Positions 39,410 to 64,000 of a stretch of DNA of 64,000 nt are shown here, piece by piece. Source of the stretch: Candidatus Gastranaerophilales bacterium. GTDB lineage: Bacteria; Cyanobacteriota; Vampirovibrionia; Gastranaerophilales; Gastranaerophilaceae. A model generated the notes under the pieces. It worked only from the letters and a program-made list of their open reading frames with translations, was not told the DNA's origin and ran no database searches. Both the position numbers and the translations under genes were made by a program. The stretch is taken from positions 62,001 through 126,000 of the forward strand of contig CALVBO010000004.1 of assembly GCA_944325835.1 (NCBI GenBank), read 5' to 3'. Every line of letters begins with the position of its first letter. Position 1 is the first letter of the stretch.

Positions 39410-39754
39410 ATGAAAGATAAATGTCAAAAATATGAAGGTTTATTCGTTTTTTCGGATGAAGCAACGCTTGAAGCTCACATAAAAGAGTGTCCGGACTGCC
39501 GCGCTGAACATGAAAAAATGTCTAAAGTTTCAGAACTTTTGCAAGAGGTAAAACCGTATTATATTGCACAGCGCAAGAAAAAGGCACAAATGAAGATTGC
39601 CTGTGCGATATCATTTATGTTTCTTTCGGGCACTGTTCTGGGTTTAGTTAATCTGAATCCGGATATATCCGACACGCTCCGCTATGGTACCGTTCTGGAA
39701 GCGCAGGATTACGGGTTCCCGGTAGACGATTACGGATTTTTATTGGTTGAATGA
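39410..39754 (+). CDS. Zinc-finger anti-sigma factor
   Basis: The 114 residues carry the ZAS motif H23-x3-C27-x2-C30 (HIKECPDC), with Cys5 as likely fourth ligand, then a membrane helix near 62-80 (IACAISFMFLSGTVLGLV) and a short periplasmic tail. This plan fits an inner-membrane anti-sigma factor holding the ECF sigma encoded next. Stop and start overlap (ATGA), so synthesis is coupled. The usual order is sigma before anti-sigma; here it is reversed. Confidence 0.82.
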   Translation: MKDKCQKYEGLFVFSDEATLEAHIKECPDCRAEHEKMSKVSELLQEVKPYYIAQRKKKAQMKIACAISFMFLSGTVLGLVNLNPDISDTLRYGTVLEAQDYGFPVDDYGFLLVE

Positions 39755-40254
39755 TGGATTTTAACAAGTTAGTCAGAGAAAATAAGAAAAATATCCAAAA
39801 TATTATCCGCCTTGTAACAAAGGAGAATAACGAGGATCTGGAACAGGAAGTTTACATCCGCGTGCTTAAAAATGCTGATAAGTACAAGGAACAGGGAACT
39901 TTCAAAAGCTGGGTTTCGACTATTGCAAAGAATATTTCCAAAGACTATCTGAAATCCGCCTCTTACAAGGCCCGTGAAAATTCTACCTCTGAAGACGAGG
40001 ACTGGGTTCAAATCGCAGACAAGAAGGTTACGCCGGAATTGCGATTGATTAAAAACGAAAGACAACAAATAATAATTGACGCGGTTAATTCACTGAAACC
40101 GAAATTTAAAGAGGTTGTCCTTATGTGTGAAATCTACGGTTACTCCTACGAGGACTGCGCGAAAAAGCTTAACTGTCCGCTCGGAACCGTTAAATCCAGA
40201 CTTTATAACGCAAAAAAAGAACTTTCAATACTTCTTGCCGACCTGATAGAATAA
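39751..40254 (+). CDS. ECF-type RNA polymerase sigma factor
   Basis: The 167-residue protein has sigma region 2 (NEDLEQEVYIRVLKNADKYK, then FKSWVSTIAKNISKDYLK) and region 4 (LKPKFKEVVLMCEIYGYSYE, then DCAKKLNCPLGTVKSRLYNA). It should direct transcription when released by the anti-sigma factor at 39410. The start is 39751 or 39754 (two adjacent ATG). It is followed at 15 bp by a Spy-like periplasmic protein, so the operon is probably an envelope or metal stress unit. Confidence 0.92.
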   Translation: MMDFNKLVRENKKNIQNIIRLVTKENNEDLEQEVYIRVLKNADKYKEQGTFKSWVSTIAKNISKDYLKSASYKARENSTSEDEDWVQIADKKVTPELRLIKNERQQIIIDAVNSLKPKFKEVVLMCEIYGYSYEDCAKKLNCPLGTVKSRLYNAKKELSILLADLIE

Positions 40255-55359: not shown

Positions 55360-55871
55360 TAGAACTTCTTATTTTACATTCTCTGATGCAGAAAAGTTAT
55401 ACGATGTATTCTATAAAAAAGCACATCGAAACTGTTTTTGCCGCGTTCGTTACTCCGAGTTTCGGCGCGATAAATCCTGCGCTTCGCAGGCTTGAAGAAA
55501 AAGAATGTATTAAATCCGGCAAGATTATGTCTGATGGCGGAAAACTTTCTATTTATTACAATATTACTAAAAAAGGCAAAGAAGAATTTGCACGTTTGCT
55601 TTTAGACGATATGAGCCAAAATCCGTCGCAGTTTTTTCTTCTGGCAAGACTTAAATTGATAATGGCGGATTATTTGAATAAAGAAGAGAAAAAACGCCTC
55701 TTTTTTATTATAAAATCTCTTGCTATGAAGTTTAAAAATCAGGCGTCCGAACGCCGCGATTCCGGCGGATTTTACTATCAAGTGGTGCTGGATAATATTG
55801 CCTGTGAATATTCCAACCTCATTACCGCTGTAGAAGCTCTGGAGAAAGACAATGCCCGCAATAGTCAGTGA
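55356..55871 (+). CDS. PadR-like transcriptional regulator
   Basis: The 171-residue protein has an N-terminal winged helix (LILHSLMQKSYTMYSIKKHI, then SFGAINPALRRLEEKECIKS) and a helical Vir_act_alpha_C-like dimer domain. It overlaps the mutase gene upstream and the DUF512 gene downstream, so the three are co-expressed. The ligand is unknown. Confidence 0.83.
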   Translation: MIELLILHSLMQKSYTMYSIKKHIETVFAAFVTPSFGAINPALRRLEEKECIKSGKIMSDGGKLSIYYNITKKGKEEFARLLLDDMSQNPSQFFLLARLKLIMADYLNKEEKKRLFFIIKSLAMKFKNQASERRDSGGFYYQVVLDNIACEYSNLITAVEALEKDNARNSQ

Positions 55872-57141
55872 TGTCTTAAAAGGCTCAATCGCCGAAGAAC
55901 TTGAAATCTCAAAAGGAGATATAATTTTATCAATCGACGAAACCCCTATGGCTGATATGATTGATTATAATTTTTTGTGTAAATCGGATTTTCTGACGCT
56001 TGAGGTTCAAAAGGCCGGTACAGATGAGGTTGAAGTTATTGAACTAGAAAAAGATTATGACGAAGAGCTTGGAATAATCTTTGAAAGTGCGGTTTTTGAC
56101 AGAATTAAACCCTGCCTTAATAAATGCATTTTTTGTTTCGTTGACCAGCAGCCAAAAGGTTTGCGTAACACGCTCTATATTAAAGATGATGATTACAGGC
56201 TTTCTTATTTGCAGGGAACGTATATTACGCTGACAAATTTTACGGAAAAAGACAAAGAACGTATTGCGCGGATGCATCTGGGGCCTTTTTATGTTTCTGT
56301 TCACACAACCAATCCCGAACTTCGCGTTAAAATGCTCAGAAACCCTAATGCAGGAAAACTTATGGATAATCTAAAATGGTTCAGAAAAAATAAAATTCCG
56401 TTCCATGCCCAGATAGTCCTGTGCCCGGGATGGAATGACGGAGAGGAACTTGAACGTACATTAAAAGACTTATCAACGCTTAAAAATACTGTGTTATCGG
56501 TTGCAATAGTTCCTGTCGGCGTGACACAGTTCAGGCAGGAAAAGCTTGTTCAGGTTGATGCGCGTGTCGCAAAAGAAACTATTGAAATCGCCTCAAAATA
56601 TAAAAGAGTTTGCTGCTCGGATGAATTCTTTCTCCTTGCCGGCATGGAAATTCCCGATAAAAAATATTACGGCGATTTCGGGCAGCTGGATGACGGTGTC
56701 GGTTCAATCCGATACCTGCTAGAAAATTTTAAGGCTTATAAATTGCCAAAGAAAATATCAAAACCTCTCAAGATTGCGTTTGCAACATCATACGCCGCAA
56801 AAGATGCATTTCAGGAAATCGCGGCAGAGTTGAACAAAGTTAAAAATCTCAGCGTTACGATAAACCCTGTTAAATCAAATTACTGGGGTGAAAATATTAC
56901 CGTAGCCGGTTTGATTACTTCTGATGATTTAATCGCTGCCGTCAAAGATATTGATGCCGATTATATTGTAATCCCGGGAATTATGCTAAAACCCTACAGT
57001 GAAGATTTTCTTGACGGGAATAATCTTGATTATGTCAGAGCAAAAACAAACAAAAATTTTATAATTAACAAACAAAAATATAGTATTACAGAGCTTCTTA
57101 ATCAGCTTACCGGTTTTTCAGGCGAAACAACTATTTGCTAA
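55852..57141 (+). CDS. DUF512 protein with PDZ-like and radical SAM-like regions
   Basis: Residues 1-65 are PDZ-like (VLKGSIAEELEISKGDIILS). C88-x3-C92-x2-C95 (CLNKCIFCF) then matches the radical SAM cluster of this family, and the C-terminal DUF512 part follows (VPVGVTQFRQEKL, SDEFFLLAGMEIP, DDGVGSIRYLLENF). The 429-residue length is normal for these widely conserved proteins, which are common in cyanobacteria and Firmicutes. GGAGAAAGACA precedes the ATG. The reaction is not established. Confidence 0.92.
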   Translation: MPAIVSDVLKGSIAEELEISKGDIILSIDETPMADMIDYNFLCKSDFLTLEVQKAGTDEVEVIELEKDYDEELGIIFESAVFDRIKPCLNKCIFCFVDQQPKGLRNTLYIKDDDYRLSYLQGTYITLTNFTEKDKERIARMHLGPFYVSVHTTNPELRVKMLRNPNAGKLMDNLKWFRKNKIPFHAQIVLCPGWNDGEELERTLKDLSTLKNTVLSVAIVPVGVTQFRQEKLVQVDARVAKETIEIASKYKRVCCSDEFFLLAGMEIPDKKYYGDFGQLDDGVGSIRYLLENFKAYKLPKKISKPLKIAFATSYAAKDAFQEIAAELNKVKNLSVTINPVKSNYWGENITVAGLITSDDLIAAVKDIDADYIVIPGIMLKPYSEDFLDGNNLDYVRAKTNKNFIINKQKYSITELLNQLTGFSGETTIC

Positions 57142-57596: not shown

Positions 57597-57742
57597 TATT
57601 ATACCATAATAAAACCCGTAAAGGAAATTTTTGCTAGTGTGCCCGAATTTTCTATATAAAAATTGTTACAAAACTTTACAAAATTTTTGGAATATTTTAT
57701 AATGATATTCCGTCTAAGGTTTTAGAGGAGAGAATTTATATA

Positions 57743-60700
57743 ATGGAAAATTTATTAATTGCTGACAATCAAGATATTACGTTAACCGAAAAAGAGGTTT
57801 TGGAAGAATCACAAAATTCCGTAAGAACAATAGCTGACAATTTGCTTAAAACAAAGGCTTATTATAATGCACTTGCCGCTAATGCGGTTATGCAGTATTT
57901 GAAAGATAAAGGTTTGCTGCGCGGTGAAATCGTTAATATGCACTCAAGCTCCAAGATGCTTGTGGACTTTGAAATCGCGGATATCCAGCTTCCTAATCTT
58001 TATATTGATGTTAGAGCCGTTTTTGATGAAAACGAAATATTTATTCCTAAAAAGCATTTTGAAAACAAGCTTATTCCTGACATTTACCTTATCATGAAGC
58101 TTGATGATGATTTGACAAACGGAACTCTTCTCGGGTTTGTTGAACCGGCAAAAATAAATAAGAAAAACCAAAATGATGAATATTATTTTGTTAATAAATC
58201 AATTCTTACTCCTCCTTCAAAATTAACGGAATTAATTAATTCGTTTGCGCTCAAGCAGCAGTATGTTATCTCAGAAAGCGCTGAGCTGGTTATTGAAAAG
58301 CTTATTATGCTTTATATGGATCACGATATTGATGATACAAAGCTTGAAAAACTTATTGATTATCTTAAAAACAGTGTTATTGCCAGAGAAAAACTCATTG
58401 AATTTGAAAACTTTGAGAGGCTGTCTTACATGGCGCTTCAGGAGTTCAAAAATTTAGACGTTGAAAACAATGATTTTTCTAAATATATCAGAACTCTGGT
58501 TGCAACGGATGAATTTGCGCAATTCGATGATAAAAGTGATGATTTATCGGAACTTTTCGGCGATGAAACATCACAGCCTAAAGGGTTATTTGTTGACGAT
58601 GTCGTTGAGGCTGTGCCTATGGACGAACCTGCTGTAGAAGAAGTTCCTGCAGAAGAAAAAACTATTGTTGATGAAGAAGATTTGCCGCTCACAAAAGCCG
58701 TGCATGATGAAATCGCACATGATGAAGTTCAGGAACCGGTTGAAGAAGAAATAGAAGCAGAAGTTTTTGATGATATTGAAGAGCTTGCTGTGCCGGAGGA
58801 AAATTCTGCAGAAGTTATTGAGGATACTCTTGAAGCCGCAGCTGATTCTGTTTCAGAAGAGGGTGATACAAGCGTTTTTGATGAATTCGACGCTTTTGAG
58901 GCCGGTGATGAATTTGATATTCCTGATGAACTTTTAGCAGAGGAAGAACAACCTGCTGCTGTCGAAGAAACTCATGATGTGACACAGGAGCCGGAAAATG
59001 CACCGGATATCGAAGAAATTTCGCCGGTTGTTGATGAAGCAGAAGTTGCTGCAGATGAAGTTACTGAGGAGATTGTTTCAGATGAAACAATAGCAAGTGG
59101 TGAAACATCTGTTGAAACTCTTGATCCGGATACTTTGATTGTAGAACCGGCAATTGAAGAAGAAAATATTGAGCTTTCTGCTATTGATGCTGAACCCGCT
59201 ACGGCAATTGAAGAAGAAAATATTGAGCTTTCTGCTATTGATGCTGAACCCGCTACGGCAATTGAAGAAGAAAATATTGAACTTTCTGCAGTTGAAACCG
59301 AACCGGAGATGACAATTGAAGAAGAGCCGGCTACGGAGGACATTGTAGAACCTGATGAAACAGTTATAACCGATGAGGATATCAATCAAAATTCTGAAAA
59401 TTTAACAGAATCATTGAACAGTGAAGATCTGGAATTACAGCTTGACGAGCCTGTTAGTGAAAATTTGGAAACAGAAAATATTGAACTGGAGCCTATTGAA
59501 GAAATTTCTCTTGAAACTCCTGAAAATGTTACGGAAGATATTATTACTGATTCCGCACATGAAAAAGAGGAGCCGAAAGAACTTGATGTAGCACGGGCTT
59601 TAGATTTAGATACTGTAAATCTGGATAGCGACACTGTCATAGGTTTATCAGAAGGTATTATGGATGTGAAAGATGTCGAAGATGTTCAAACCGGTGAACC
59701 GGCGCCGGAAGAAACACTTTCTGCCGATGAGCTTGATAATATCGTCTTTGATACAGAAAATACAGAAGAAGAACCGCAAACGCCGGAAGCACCGTCAGAA
59801 GAATCTGTTTCCGCCATGCAGGAGTTTGAACCGGTGGAAACTGTAACGGATGAGGATGTGGAAAATGCAATTGCACAAAGTCAGGCCAATGAGGATAAAA
59901 AAGAAGAACACTCTTCTGATATTGATCTTTTAATGGGAATGGATAATTCTTCTGATGCTGATAATTTGAGTTTGGAAGAATTATTATCAATGGAAAATGA
60001 TTTGAGTGCTTCGGATGATCCGCATAGTGCATTTCATTTTTCAGATTCTGAGGATGAAGATGAGCATGGTGATGCCAAAAATGCAACAAAAACGGTTGCA
60101 GCTTCCGCAGAAGAATTAGAAATGCTGGCAGCTGATCTGGATGATGGTCCGGAAGCTGTCATTCAAGATAATACCCCTAAGGTTGAAGATACTGAAGATG
60201 ATGAAGACCTTTCAAATTTTGCGTTTGCAGTTGATTCCAGAGCACAGGGGAATAATGCCAAGAAAATACTTATTCCTGTTGCGGCATTAGTGACAGTTCT
60301 CGGACTTGCCGGTGCCGGAGCATGGTATTTCTTATCCCATGGTAAATCCGTAGCAGGTACCGGTAGTATTGATGTTGACAATATCGGAACCGGCGGAGCT
60401 GATATAGATTTGAATAATGTAGTAACTCCTGAAAATCCTCCGGTAGCGGATATAAAACTTCCGGCTGAAACCGCAGCTAAACCGGCAGTTCCGCAGGCTA
60501 AAAAAGCTGAGGATAAAAAGGTTCCGCCATCTGCTGTACCGGAAGCACAACCGGCTTCCACCGAAAATAACGCCGAGGCTGCTGCTCCTGAACCTTTAAC
60601 TATACAAAAAATTAAAAAGGATTTTTCACAGCCTAATACATACCTTTCTGTAAGTAAAATTGTCTGGGATGTTCCTGAATATTTAACCTATAATGATGAT

Positions 60701-60982
60701 TTTAATACCTATTTGCAAACACTTGGCAGTACGTTAAAACTAAATCTCTCCAGTGATTTGCTTTTAATAAGTGAAAATACAGTATTCAATAAGGTGAAGG
60801 TTAAAATTGAATTAAAGGACAGCGGTAAAAAATACAGTGCGGAGCTTGCAGAAGGCTGCGGAACTCAGGTTGTTGATGATTTAGTGTTACAATCTGTTAA
60901 GAATACGCTTAATCTTCTGAAACCACCGGTAAATAGCCTTGAAACGGCAGATGAAGAATTGTTTATAACTATATATTTATAA
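57743..60982 (+). CDS. 1079-aa acidic membrane protein with TonB_C-like end
   Basis: Residues 1-280 form a folded-looking cytoplasmic domain without recognised family. Residues 290-830 are extremely acidic low-complexity sequence, including the 18-residue repeat AIEEENIELSAIDAEPAT. One membrane helix lies at about 840-863 (ILIPVAALVTVLGLAGAGAW), then a Pro/Ala-rich linker. The last 105 residues (VKVKIELKDSGKKYSAELAE, DDLVLQSVKNTLNLLKPP, LFITIYL) resemble the TonB/TolA C-terminal fold. If so, it spans from cytoplasm to periplasm. It heads a cluster with a sigma-like factor and a zinc-ribbon ATPase. The function is unknown. Confidence 0.75.
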   Translation: MENLLIADNQDITLTEKEVLEESQNSVRTIADNLLKTKAYYNALAANAVMQYLKDKGLLRGEIVNMHSSSKMLVDFEIADIQLPNLYIDVRAVFDENEIFIPKKHFENKLIPDIYLIMKLDDDLTNGTLLGFVEPAKINKKNQNDEYYFVNKSILTPPSKLTELINSFALKQQYVISESAELVIEKLIMLYMDHDIDDTKLEKLIDYLKNSVIAREKLIEFENFERLSYMALQEFKNLDVENNDFSKYIRTLVATDEFAQFDDKSDDLSELFGDETSQPKGLFVDDVVEAVPMDEPAVEEVPAEEKTIVDEEDLPLTKAVHDEIAHDEVQEPVEEEIEAEVFDDIEELAVPEENSAEVIEDTLEAAADSVSEEGDTSVFDEFDAFEAGDEFDIPDELLAEEEQPAAVEETHDVTQEPENAPDIEEISPVVDEAEVAADEVTEEIVSDETIASGETSVETLDPDTLIVEPAIEEENIELSAIDAEPATAIEEENIELSAIDAEPATAIEEENIELSAVETEPEMTIEEEPATEDIVEPDETVITDEDINQNSENLTESLNSEDLELQLDEPVSENLETENIELEPIEEISLETPENVTEDIITDSAHEKEEPKELDVARALDLDTVNLDSDTVIGLSEGIMDVKDVEDVQTGEPAPEETLSADELDNIVFDTENTEEEPQTPEAPSEESVSAMQEFEPVETVTDEDVENAIAQSQANEDKKEEHSSDIDLLMGMDNSSDADNLSLEELLSMENDLSASDDPHSAFHFSDSEDEDEHGDAKNATKTVAASAEELEMLAADLDDGPEAVIQDNTPKVEDTEDDEDLSNFAFAVDSRAQGNNAKKILIPVAALVTVLGLAGAGAWYFLSHGKSVAGTGSIDVDNIGTGGADIDLNNVVTPENPPVADIKLPAETAAKPAVPQAKKAEDKKVPPSAVPEAQPASTENNAEAAAPEPLTIQKIKKDFSQPNTYLSVSKIVWDVPEYLTYNDDFNTYLQTLGSTLKLNLSSDLLLISENTVFNKVKVKIELKDSGKKYSAELAEGCGTQVVDDLVLQSVKNTLNLLKPPVNSLETADEELFITIYL
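59151..59312 (+). repeat. 54-bp tandem repeat in the acidic protein gene
   Basis: Copies begin CAATTGAAGAAGAAAATATT at 59151, 59205 and 59259. The first two are essentially identical over 54 bp; the third diverges in its second half. Repeat number could vary without a frameshift. Confidence 0.85.
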
Positions 60983-60998
60983 TTTTTTAATCTTGTGC

Positions 60999-61033
60999 TA
61001 TAATAAACGCAGTAGACAGCAGATTACTGCGTT
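60999..61033 (+). promoter_or_regulatory. -10 box and leader hairpin before the sigma-like gene
   Basis: TATAAT (60999-61004) is followed by AACGCAGTA (61006-61014) and its exact complement TACTGCGTT (61025-61033), then AAAGGGAGC, the ribosome site. The hairpin abuts the ribosome site and could affect translation. Confidence 0.5.
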
Positions 61034-61047
61034 AAAGGGAGCTAGGC

Positions 61048-61626
61048 GTGGAAACATTAACACCTGAAAAAAAATTATTAATTGAAAAGTGTATAAAAAA
61101 TAATAAAAAATTCCAAAATAATGAAGATTTATATGATGATTTCTTTAATGAAACATATAAAAATGCGTTGTCTTTATTAAAGACGGTTTCTTCTGAATCT
61201 ACAATAGAACTTTATTTAAAAAGAGTTGTAACAAGCTCTATGATTAATGTTTTAAAGGATTCCGGCCGGCTAAGACGTACCTCTCAAGGCTATCAGGCAA
61301 CGCCATCCGTGCCTATTGATTCTGTTCTTGATACATATAATCCGGAGTATTTGAATACCAGAATTATTTTTAAAAATGTTCAACTGGAAGATAATCCCGA
61401 AGACGCTTTTATTAAAAGAGAATTGTTGAAAAATATTACCCGTATTTTAAATGAAATCGAAAAAAAAGAACCTGATAAGCAATACTTAACTCTTTTTAAG
61501 CTCCGTTATGAAGACGGGCTGACCCAGAATGAAATCGCTCTTAAACTTGGTATTTCCCAATCTGAAGTGTCTAAAAAATTATTTAAGTTAATGGCTAAGG
61601 TGAAGGAAAATCTTAATTTAGGATAG
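61048..61626 (+). CDS. Sigma-70-family-like factor
   Basis: The 192-residue protein uses GTG as start, placed seven bases after GGGAGC. The first 75 residues resemble sigma region 2 (YDDFFNETYKNALSLLKTVS, LYLKRVVTSSMINVLKDSGR). The C-terminal 50 residues are a clear region 4 HTH (LTLFKLRYEDGLTQNEIALK, LGISQSEVSKKLFKLMAKVK). No anti-sigma gene is adjacent. It is followed after three bases by the zinc-ribbon ATPase, so the two are coupled. It could also be a sigma-like regulator. Confidence 0.8.
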   Translation: METLTPEKKLLIEKCIKNNKKFQNNEDLYDDFFNETYKNALSLLKTVSSESTIELYLKRVVTSSMINVLKDSGRLRRTSQGYQATPSVPIDSVLDTYNPEYLNTRIIFKNVQLEDNPEDAFIKRELLKNITRILNEIEKKEPDKQYLTLFKLRYEDGLTQNEIALKLGISQSEVSKKLFKLMAKVKENLNLG

Positions 61627-61629
61627 AAA

Positions 61630-64000
61630 ATGAAGTGTCCAGTTTGTAAAAAAGAAGTTCCTGATGAATCAATTATCTGTCCGGAGTGCAAAGCAAGAAT
61701 AGGGTTAGTTTGTTATAAGTGTAAGACAGTCAACCCGATTAATACTCTGCGCTGCAAGAAATGTAATACAGAAATCCTAAGACTTTGCCCGCATTGTCGT
61801 ACAATAAATTTACCAACCGCAAGCGTTTGCAGAAAATGTCATGCCTCACTGCTTTCTGATAAAGAGCCTTCCGCAGAGCCGGTTAAGGAACAGGTTAAGG
61901 AACCTCAGCAGCCAAAATTTGCGAAAATTAAGCCGACTCAGGATGAAATAATTAATCTTATATATAACGCAATTGTTGAGAACGAAAAGTTTATTATATC
62001 TCTTAATGCACCGAAGGGTATGGGCAAAGATTTTGTACTGGATAAGGTTCTTGATAAACTTGGCGGAACAACTTATACTGTCCTCAAGGGCACCTGTTCT
62101 CCGCTTTCGCAATTGACACCGGGCGGGTTAATTCAGGAAATTTTGATTTCGCTTCTCGGACTGCCGAATTTTTGTATTAATAATGTTCAGTTTCAAAAAG
62201 ACGCGTTTAAGTTCTTTAAAAATGAGTTTGCAGAATTCGCCAATGACGAAATTGTAATGCTTATTAACCTGTTATATCCGTATTTGACAGGGAATTTTGA
62301 AGATATTCTTACAAACAAATCGCGGACATTCAATCTGGTGACAAAAGTTTTTGCGCATATTTTTAGATCGCATAAAGTCTTATTTGTCATTAATAATTTT
62401 GATTTTATTGACGCGCTTTCGTACGAATATTTTAATAACTTTATAAAGATTGATGATATTTTTGAGCATACAAAATTTCTTATGACATATTCGGAGCCGC
62501 GTCCGGCGCAGGCTTATTTTTTTCTTGAAGAAGAAAAGTACGGCGATATTTATTTCAATCTCGAATTATCTCCGCTTACGCCTGTTGAGGCTGTTGGTAT
62601 CTTTAAGATGACACCGGGGATTAATAAAATTCTGCCGGATATAGAAAAGAAAGAGCTTTACAAAAAATCCAAAGGCAGTCCGGCTTTTATTGAACAGGGT
62701 ATTGCATATAAACAGGATTGTATTCAGTATGATCTGGATTTCAAACTTCCTGATAATATTACGGACTTGATTAAAAAAAGGCTGGAAATCTTAAAAATCA
62801 GGACTCCGCTTGCGTTTAATGTTTTGCTTTGCGCGTCAATTCTCGGTAAAAAGATTAATATTAATCTTATAAAAGAAGTTTTTGAATTAAATGACGATAT
62901 CTTCAACAATACGGCGAAATTCCTGATTGGTAAGGGTTTTATCTCGGAAATTAACGAGTTTTTCTGTGAATTTAAAAATTCGCTTCTCTGGGAAGTTGTT
63001 TTAACTGTTGCGAAAAACGAACCGAATTTTGTTGAAATTAACAAAAAATTGTATTCGATTCTGAAAATTTTTACTCTGAATTCTAACACTACTCTTGCGA
63101 TAATTCTGCAAAACCTTCAAAATAAAAAAGAGGCGCTGAATGTTTGGACGCATAATGTTAATCTCTGTAGTTATATCGGGGATGTTAATTTGTATATTAT
63201 TTCGCAAAAACAGTGTCTGGCGCTTATTAACGAACTTGATGACAGGGAAACTTTGAAAATCCGGTTTAATATCGCTGAGCGTCTCGGAAAAATCTTAACC
63301 CAGTATAAACCCGATGATGCGATAGAATTCCTGCCGGATGCGATTTCAAATGCTCAGGGTATAGGTAACAGCATAAAAGAAATTGAACTTCTGGGATATC
63401 TTACATGTTCGTGTCAGAGAGCCGGCAATTATTACGGTGTGGTTGAAAGTGTTGACAGGGTGCTGGAAAAAGTCAATCCGGCTAAAGACCTTGAAATCGC
63501 CATGATTAAAGCGGCTAAACTTGATGCGCTTTTAAATATTGGTGATTGTGCGGAAGTTATTAATCTTATTCAAAATGATATTATGCCGGTGTTTAATAAA
63601 TATCTTAACGGTGTGTACCGCAGAAAAGACATTTCTTACGAACTGCTTTATAACACCTGGCTAAGAACATATTTAATTCTGGCGAATGCTTATATCTTCC
63701 AGGGTAATAACAAAGCCTTTGAAATTACAACTCTGTTATTTAATATAATTGAGCGTGGACAGGTTAAAGACACTAACTTTATTATTAAATGCCATCTTGC
63801 CTTTGCATTTGCAAGTACGGTTGCCGGCGACTACGCGGCTTCCAATAAACATTTACAGGAAATCATGGACGCTTGTACAGAATTTTCTATGAGTAATGAA
63901 AATATTCTGCGCTGGAATTTTATCAACATGATAAACCGTTTCCTCAACCACGAATACGAACATATTCAGGAAGATCTGTTTGAAATCGTCGCGTTTGCGA
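61630..64000 (+). CDS. Zinc-ribbon STAND-like ATPase, 3' end outside window
   Basis: The first 70 residues hold six CxxC pairs (C3/C6, C17/C20, C28/C31, C42/C45, C53/C56, C67/C70), forming three zinc ribbons. An ATPase domain follows with Walker A LNAPKGMGKDF (Lys133, with Asp134 where Ser/Thr is usual) and Walker B VLFVINNFDFID near 255. From about 400 onward helical repeat-like sequence continues to the window edge, at least 790 residues in total. The plan is that of large predicted signalling ATPases (STAND/AAA). It starts three bases after the sigma-like gene. Confidence 0.8.
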   Translation, partial: MKCPVCKKEVPDESIICPECKARIGLVCYKCKTVNPINTLRCKKCNTEILRLCPHCRTINLPTASVCRKCHASLLSDKEPSAEPVKEQVKEPQQPKFAKIKPTQDEIINLIYNAIVENEKFIISLNAPKGMGKDFVLDKVLDKLGGTTYTVLKGTCSPLSQLTPGGLIQEILISLLGLPNFCINNVQFQKDAFKFFKNEFAEFANDEIVMLINLLYPYLTGNFEDILTNKSRTFNLVTKVFAHIFRSHKVLFVINNFDFIDALSYEYFNNFIKIDDIFEHTKFLMTYSEPRPAQAYFFLEEEKYGDIYFNLELSPLTPVEAVGIFKMTPGINKILPDIEKKELYKKSKGSPAFIEQGIAYKQDCIQYDLDFKLPDNITDLIKKRLEILKIRTPLAFNVLLCASILGKKININLIKEVFELNDDIFNNTAKFLIGKGFISEINEFFCEFKNSLLWEVVLTVAKNEPNFVEINKKLYSILKIFTLNSNTTLAIILQNLQNKKEALNVWTHNVNLCSYIGDVNLYIISQKQCLALINELDDRETLKIRFNIAERLGKILTQYKPDDAIEFLPDAISNAQGIGNSIKEIELLGYLTCSCQRAGNYYGVVESVDRVLEKVNPAKDLEIAMIKAAKLDALLNIGDCAEVINLIQNDIMPVFNKYLNGVYRRKDISYELLYNTWLRTYLILANAYIFQGNNKAFEITTLLFNIIERGQVKDTNFIIKCHLAFAFASTVAGDYAASNKHLQEIMDACTEFSMSNENILRWNFINMINRFLNHEYEHIQEDLFEIVAFA

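Follow-up and report, generated by a model that had tools for sequence, protein, structure and literature searches.

A predicted ECF-type sigma switch with a putative membrane anti-sigma factor ending in a TonB/TolA-type domain in the Gastranaerophilales

Extracytoplasmic function (ECF) sigma factors paired with class I anti-sigma factors are already known, as in RpoE-RseA, AlgU-MucA and SigW-RsiW, and ECF promoters of the GGAA-CGTC kind are established. The placement of DUF1822 (a domain of unknown function) beside ECF sigma factors is known too: the association was described in 2021, with immunity-type roles proposed and fusions to STAND NTPases listed (PMC8195603). Here a cluster of three genes, gene1, gene2 and gene3, is described at the end of a window of 64,000 nucleotides from a Candidatus Gastranaerophilales bacterium (assembly GCA_944325835.1, contig CALVBO010000004.1, positions 62,001 to 126,000; coordinates without a prefix are those of the window). 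With a probability of roughly three in four, the cluster is an ECF-type sigma switch in which gene1 is a single-pass membrane anti-sigma factor, gene2 the sigma factor and gene3 a signalling partner.

Like RpoE-RseA, AlgU-MucA and SigW-RsiW, the locus places a sigma gene next to one for a single-pass membrane protein that contains a class I anti-sigma-like bundle, resembles MucA and RsiW by structure and profile, and carries a GGAA-type upstream element. It differs from them in that the anti-sigma-like domain is internal, following a DUF1822 domain, and is followed by an acidic linker of about 590 residues and a predicted periplasmic domain of the TonB/TolA type; the third gene is ATPase-like, and zinc ligands kept in distant relatives are gone in the window lineage. 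With the cyanobacterial DUF1822-ECF sigma(-CHAT/EACC2) loci (PMC8195603) it shares a DUF1822 homologue beside a sigma-like gene and a variable third signalling gene, but those loci have another gene order, no detectable anti-sigma-like segment and CHAT as the third gene, in place of the zinc ribbon-AAA-TPR protein found here. An original prediction, made from the letters of the window, had proposed an envelope-to-transcription signalling system that it did not recognise. The signalling proposal is supported, and is strengthened because a class I anti-sigma-like domain in gene1 adjoins an ECF-type sigma gene. The system itself can, however, be placed among ECF sigma/anti-sigma pairs, with kinship to the DUF1822-sigma loci of cyanobacteria.

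All three open reading frames (ORFs) are on the + strand, with gaps of 65 bp (gene1-gene2) and 3 bp (gene2-gene3), confirming the layout first reported, and gene3 was completed from the contig sequence, as had been proposed. The genes and the domains of gene1 and gene2 are as follows.

57743 to 60982, + strand: gene1, 1079 aa, comprising DUF1822, anti-sigma-like domain, acidic linker, transmembrane helix and TonB/TolA-like C-terminal domain
57764 to 58258, + strand: DUF1822-like N-terminal domain of gene1, about residues 8-172 (PF08852 match, hhalign)
58274 to 58450, + strand: class I anti-sigma-like helix bundle of gene1, about residues 178-236, zinc ligands absent in the window lineage
58493 to 60259, + strand: acidic low-complexity linker of gene1, residues 251-839, about 34% Asp+Glu and 2% Lys+Arg
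60266 to 60328, + strand: single membrane helix of gene1, about residues 842-862 (hydropathy scan)
60656 to 60979, + strand: TonB/TolA-type C-terminal domain of gene1, about residues 972-1079 (profile and structure match)
61048 to 61626, + strand: gene2, 192 aa, ECF-type sigma factor (TIGR02937, Pfam Sigma70_r4)
about 61105 to 61317, + strand: region 2-like part of gene2
about 61480 to 61614, + strand: region 4 of gene2
61630 to 64000, + strand, running past the window to a stop at 64614: gene3, 994 aa, with zinc ribbons, AAA_16/STAND-type core and TPRs

The original prediction mentioned neither the DUF1822 and anti-sigma-like domains of gene1 nor the upstream element.

Profile matches identify gene2 as an ECF-type sigma factor with a clear region 4 and a divergent region 2. 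TIGR02937 scored 64.9 bits (cut-off 42.9) over residues 20-189, a match that encloses the region 2 stretch, and PF04545 (Sigma70_r4) scored 30.7 bits (cut-off 24.1); each profile matched 23 of 23 members. The earlier assignment of sigma regions 2 and 4 thus holds for the overall sigma profile and region 4, while region 2 is barely above controls.

The anti-sigma-like domain of gene1 was recognised by structure and by profile. In the AlphaFold2 (AF2) model of residues 1-258 (mean pLDDT, the model's per-residue confidence, 87.7), helices 178-232 matched MucA(cyto) in two PDB entries with Z 7.3 (root mean square deviation 2.4, 54 residues) and Z 6.9. A search of the segment profile against 177,635 PDB sequences placed RsiW second, with E 1.3, and hhalign of the segment to zf-HC2 anti-sigma domains gave a score of 23.6 (P 3.4e-4), exceeding all 56 control windows. 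The strongest evidence for the assignment is found, by sequence comparison, in distant orthologues. About half of the class I anti-sigma domains have a zinc signature, Hx3Cx2C (PMC7406223); aligned on the anti-sigma-like segment, 9 of the 13 distant orthologues carry this motif. In three of the 13 (L111, L124 and L132) zf-HC2 is above the Pfam cut-off. It is followed by a TonB match in each of the three and preceded by a DUF1822 match in L111 and L124. The motif is absent from all 73 window-like proteins, which points to a probable loss of the zinc ligands in the window lineage. Gene1 is classed as a variant of the class I anti-sigma factors and not as a typical member, having the three-helix bundle without the N-terminal position, and is predicted to bind and inhibit the gene2 sigma factor.

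The DUF1822 part of gene1 links the locus to cyanobacteria. PF08852 scored 35.2 bits (cut-off 25) over residues 35-179, covering profile positions 23-173 of 370, and hhalign against 29 cyanobacterial DUF1822 proteins gave P 1e-7 over residues 8-195. In keeping with PMC8195603, 28 of 30 cyanobacterial DUF1822 loci have a sigma-like gene as same-strand neighbour. One such gene of the short type gave no Pfam match, and this type is identified from PMC8195603 and its gene context. Profile comparison detected no anti-sigma-like segment in the cyanobacterial DUF1822 proteins, and this absence, together with their link to sigma-like genes, favours a different function for gene1: it would activate the sigma factor or tether it to the membrane without inhibition, with DUF1822 as the main sigma contact, as perhaps in cyanobacteria. 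The zinc-type anti-sigma motifs of the distant orthologues point to inhibition, and activation or tethering is considered rather unlikely. Against solved folds, Foldseek returned nothing for the DUF1822 part at E 0.001 or below, and a PDB sequence search with the DUF1822 profile gave no match. A PD-(D/E)XK nuclease fold was considered for this part, but the nucleases of this kind listed by VIA, with Z up to 7.7, are in the range that the tool calls common and no nuclease claim is made.

Among 146 sampled Gastranaerophilales genomes, gene3 homologues were found in 144 and gene1 homologues in 141. In the 80 loci fetched with gene3, the sigma gene lies directly upstream of gene3 in 79 and a TonB-domain gene1 precedes the sigma gene in 78; the exceptions to the order, L183 and L222, are located at contig ends. 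The usual gaps in relatives are about 36 bp (gene1-sigma) and 13 bp (sigma-gene3), and in a broader genus sample the order gene1-sigma-gene3 was kept in most genera. This arrangement is far beyond chance, and the adjacency reported for the window is found across most of the order. Gene1 and the sigma gene remain paired where gene3 sits elsewhere (L122, L124, L126 and L132), and gene3 is the less fixed partner. No DUF1822 or gene3 match was found in genomes of another family of the same class (f8).

Some individual genomes are recorded separately. G111 (genus g16, 99% complete) has neither gene1 nor gene3, and in G087, also of g16, gene1 is kept but no DUF1822 part could be detected in it (L107). 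Two metagenome-assembled genomes titled Fusobacterium sp. and Clostridiaceae bacterium bear the operon (L146, L217) and look mislabelled.

This distribution also bears on the possibility that the trio was derived from cyanobacterial DUF1822-ECF-CHAT conflict or cell-death systems and still serves immunity or programmed death, with gene3 replacing CHAT. The DUF1822-sigma core is common to both, 12 of the 30 cyanobacterial loci have a CHAT protein in the fetched flank, and PMC8195603 proposes immunity-type roles and lists the STAND NTPase fusions. The trio is, however, nearly universal and mostly syntenic in the Gastranaerophilales, unlike patchy immunity loci, and domain scans found no CHAT, caspase or toxic domain in it. 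A present role in immunity or death is therefore judged improbable.

The C-terminal domain of gene1 is weakly matched in the window protein alone: TIGR01352 gave E 0.14 with the whole protein and 0.0054 with the domain alone, below the cut-off. In the family the match is clear, with TIGR01352 found in 35 of 35 aligned members (best 5.3e-9) and Pfam TonB_2 in 34 of 35 (best 1.4e-9). The AF2 model of the domain, with pLDDT of about 90 or more over most of its length, matched TonB/TolA C-terminal domains (6sly, Z 8.6; 1tol, Z 8.6), and the modelling suggested with the original prediction thus yields a TonB/TolA fold. A hydropathy scan found one hydrophobic segment, located after the acidic linker, in 77 of 78 relatives. 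The description of gene1 as an acidic protein that spans the membrane and ends in a TonB/TolA-like domain is upheld.

The likeness to TonB/TolA proteins lies in the sequence and predicted fold of this domain; gene1 differs from them in its large predicted cytoplasmic half, the lack of an ExbB/ExbD neighbour and the lack of SxxxH in the membrane helix. In TonB this motif serves motor coupling. Since the helix lacks it in 77 of 78 relatives, gene1 is not expected to couple to an ExbB-type motor, and a functional TonB or TolA was rejected on the lack of the motif and of motor genes nearby. The genome of the window (1.95 Mb assembly, 44 contigs) encodes one MotA/ExbB-family protein, on another contig. 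It is very unlikely that gene1 is an energised TonB/TolA-like protein, driven by ExbB/TolQ for envelope maintenance or import with the sigma factor as an operon passenger: the type of the C-terminal domain and the presence of that one MotA/ExbB-family protein favour it, but the missing SxxxH, the location of the ExbB homologue on another contig, the anti-sigma-like domain in the cytoplasmic half and the persistence of the gene1-sigma pair where gene3 is elsewhere all oppose it.

Two further features lie outside the coding regions.

57675 to 57717, + strand: promoter-like element TTTACA...GGAATA...CGTCTAA upstream of gene1
61006 to 61033, + strand: perfect 9-bp inverted repeat with a 10-nt loop in the gene1-gene2 gap (sequence reading)

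In other genera the element takes the form TTACA-N8-GGAATA-N14-GTCATCT. TTACA-N4-12-GGAATA was found in 67 of 73 gene1 upstream regions, and 61 of the 73 loci have the full element, which adds a GTCATCT-like or CGTC block downstream. The spacings hardly vary from 8 and 14, and the core can be seen in other families. Within the genome of the window the strict form TTTAC-N8-TGGAATA-W occurs once, at 57675. The resemblance to ECF promoters of the GGAA-CGTC kind suggests self-regulation, and it is plausible, from this sequence likeness, that the gene2 sigma factor controls its own operon. A sigma-70 promoter, TTTACA-N17-TATAAT, however, overlaps the element in the window genus. Use of the element as the mark of a regulon was rejected, as strict forms in the sampled genomes are mostly upstream of gene1 and other matches occur at about the frequency of a reversed-pattern control. 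The gene1-gene2 gap that holds the inverted repeat is longer here than is usual in relatives.

Two parts of gene3 were located in the window.

61630 to 61854, + strand: three zinc ribbons with six CxxC (Pfam DZR, 5.2e-10)
62005 to 62031, + strand: degenerate Walker A, NAPKGMGKD (GxxGxGK[S/T] in relatives)

The six CxxC pairs noted in the original prediction are present in 81 of 81 gene3 proteins, and TPR_12 was matched in the window protein (5.4e-9). AAA_16 was not matched in window gene3 itself; it was found in seven of eight scanned relatives, above the cut-off in three, and in one more in another scan. Relatives also have MalT-like TPRs. The Walker motif with Asp after the Lys is present as first described and is limited to the window genus, which has GKD in Walker A and NN at the start of Walker B, against GK[S/T] and DN in most relatives. 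The Asp is therefore a genus-level degeneration, and gene3 of this genus, to judge from its P-loop, may be a scaffold without ATP hydrolysis.

In gene3 members of the outer families and of some genera, a further domain, missing in the window lineage, lies between the ribbons and the AAA core. It aligns to class III cyclase domains (hhalign P 2.8e-7, 158 columns, score 50.0; best control 15.7). Only this profile comparison detected it, sequence searches with Pfam and the PDB having failed to, and from its sequence it is degenerate. Gene3 is thus like the cyclase-AAA_16-TPR (soluble adenylyl cyclase-like) and MalT-type STAND proteins in the AAA_16 core and MalT-like TPRs of its relatives, and in the class III cyclase-like domain that members of the outer families keep between ribbons and AAA core. 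It differs in the degeneracy of that domain and its absence from the window lineage, in the three N-terminal zinc ribbons and in the degenerate P-loop of the window genus. A gene3 paralogue elsewhere in the genome of the window (L143:2602-6189, G000:C1), with zinc ribbons, a cyclase-like region and a TPR-type C-terminus, adjoins a glycogen synthase-like gene and has no sigma gene next to it.

From the domain content, gene order and upstream element, which rest on sequence or models, we infer the following mechanism. The cytoplasmic half of gene1 would clamp the gene2 sigma factor through the class I anti-sigma-like domain that follows DUF1822, and the acidic linker would lead to the membrane helix and on to the TonB/TolA-type domain in the periplasm. 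An envelope event sensed by this domain would release the sigma factor, possibly via proteolysis by a site-2-type protease. An M50 homologue of this type is encoded in the genome; to our knowledge, M50 proteases occur in nearly all bacteria. The freed sigma factor would then transcribe at least its own operon from the GGAATA-type element, and gene3 probably modulates the gene1-sigma pair as a signalling partner in the cytoplasm.

Several observations weigh against this switch. Z values near 7, such as those for MucA, fall in the range that the structure tool calls common, the RsiW match taken on its own has an E value above 1, and the window gene1 protein itself has no zf-HC2 or RseA-type match. 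Known class I domains are described as N-terminal, while the domain here comes after a DUF1822 domain of about 170 residues. For gene2, Pfam Sigma70_r2 is absent among the matches listed, and hhalign to canonical region 2, although in register, scored 17.3 against 16.8 for the best control, with a poor reference alignment. In two genera gene1 is split in two adjacent ORFs, making the anti-sigma-like and membrane parts separate proteins, and in several genera gene3 is unlinked from the pair. Beyond its one site, the strict element does not recur in the genome of the window, no wider regulon is supported, and the element is absent upstream of gene3 genes located elsewhere.

Other genes were noted in passing. 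The window holds a second ECF-type sigma gene (39751-40254; Sigma70_r2 above cut-off at 39769-39960) and, at 55852-57141, a radical SAM/PDZ protein related to the cyanobacterial family TIGR03279 (426 bits, cut-off 575). A conventional-looking pair at G000:C1:104307-104949 (L232, L278), in which the gene for a sigma region 2 protein precedes that for a zf-HC2 protein, supplied part of the zf-HC2 sequences. A type IV pilin-like stretch, FTMAEILLSLTIIGVVAAITLPSLTGN, is common to several long ORFs (L002:8765-10009, L143:26-1078, L143:6633-7913), and some N-termini are repeat-derived.

Within the open-access literature searched, nothing was found on Gastranaerophilales sigma factors; new there are the placing of an anti-sigma domain after DUF1822 and ahead of a periplasmic domain of the TonB/TolA type, the order-wide operon with gene3 and the conserved element. 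Tentatively, gene1 may represent a lineage-specific class of anti-sigma factor. Its periplasmic TonB/TolA-type domain would sense the condition of the outer envelope directly and control an ECF sigma factor, and a zinc-ribbon STAND-type protein descended from a cyclase would supply a second input from the cytoplasm. With a DUF1822-sigma core in common with cyanobacterial conflict systems, the whole would have become a core housekeeping circuit.

The Gastranaerophilales, non-photosynthetic relatives of cyanobacteria, live in the gut and are for the most part uncultured; hardly any of their signalling has been characterised. Their sigma/anti-sigma operon, being syntenic, close to universal and equipped with one predicted target element, opens envelope signalling in this order to tests. 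It would also link DUF1822 to sigma factor control across the phylum, and it suggests the TonB/TolA fold as a possible sensor of an anti-sigma factor.

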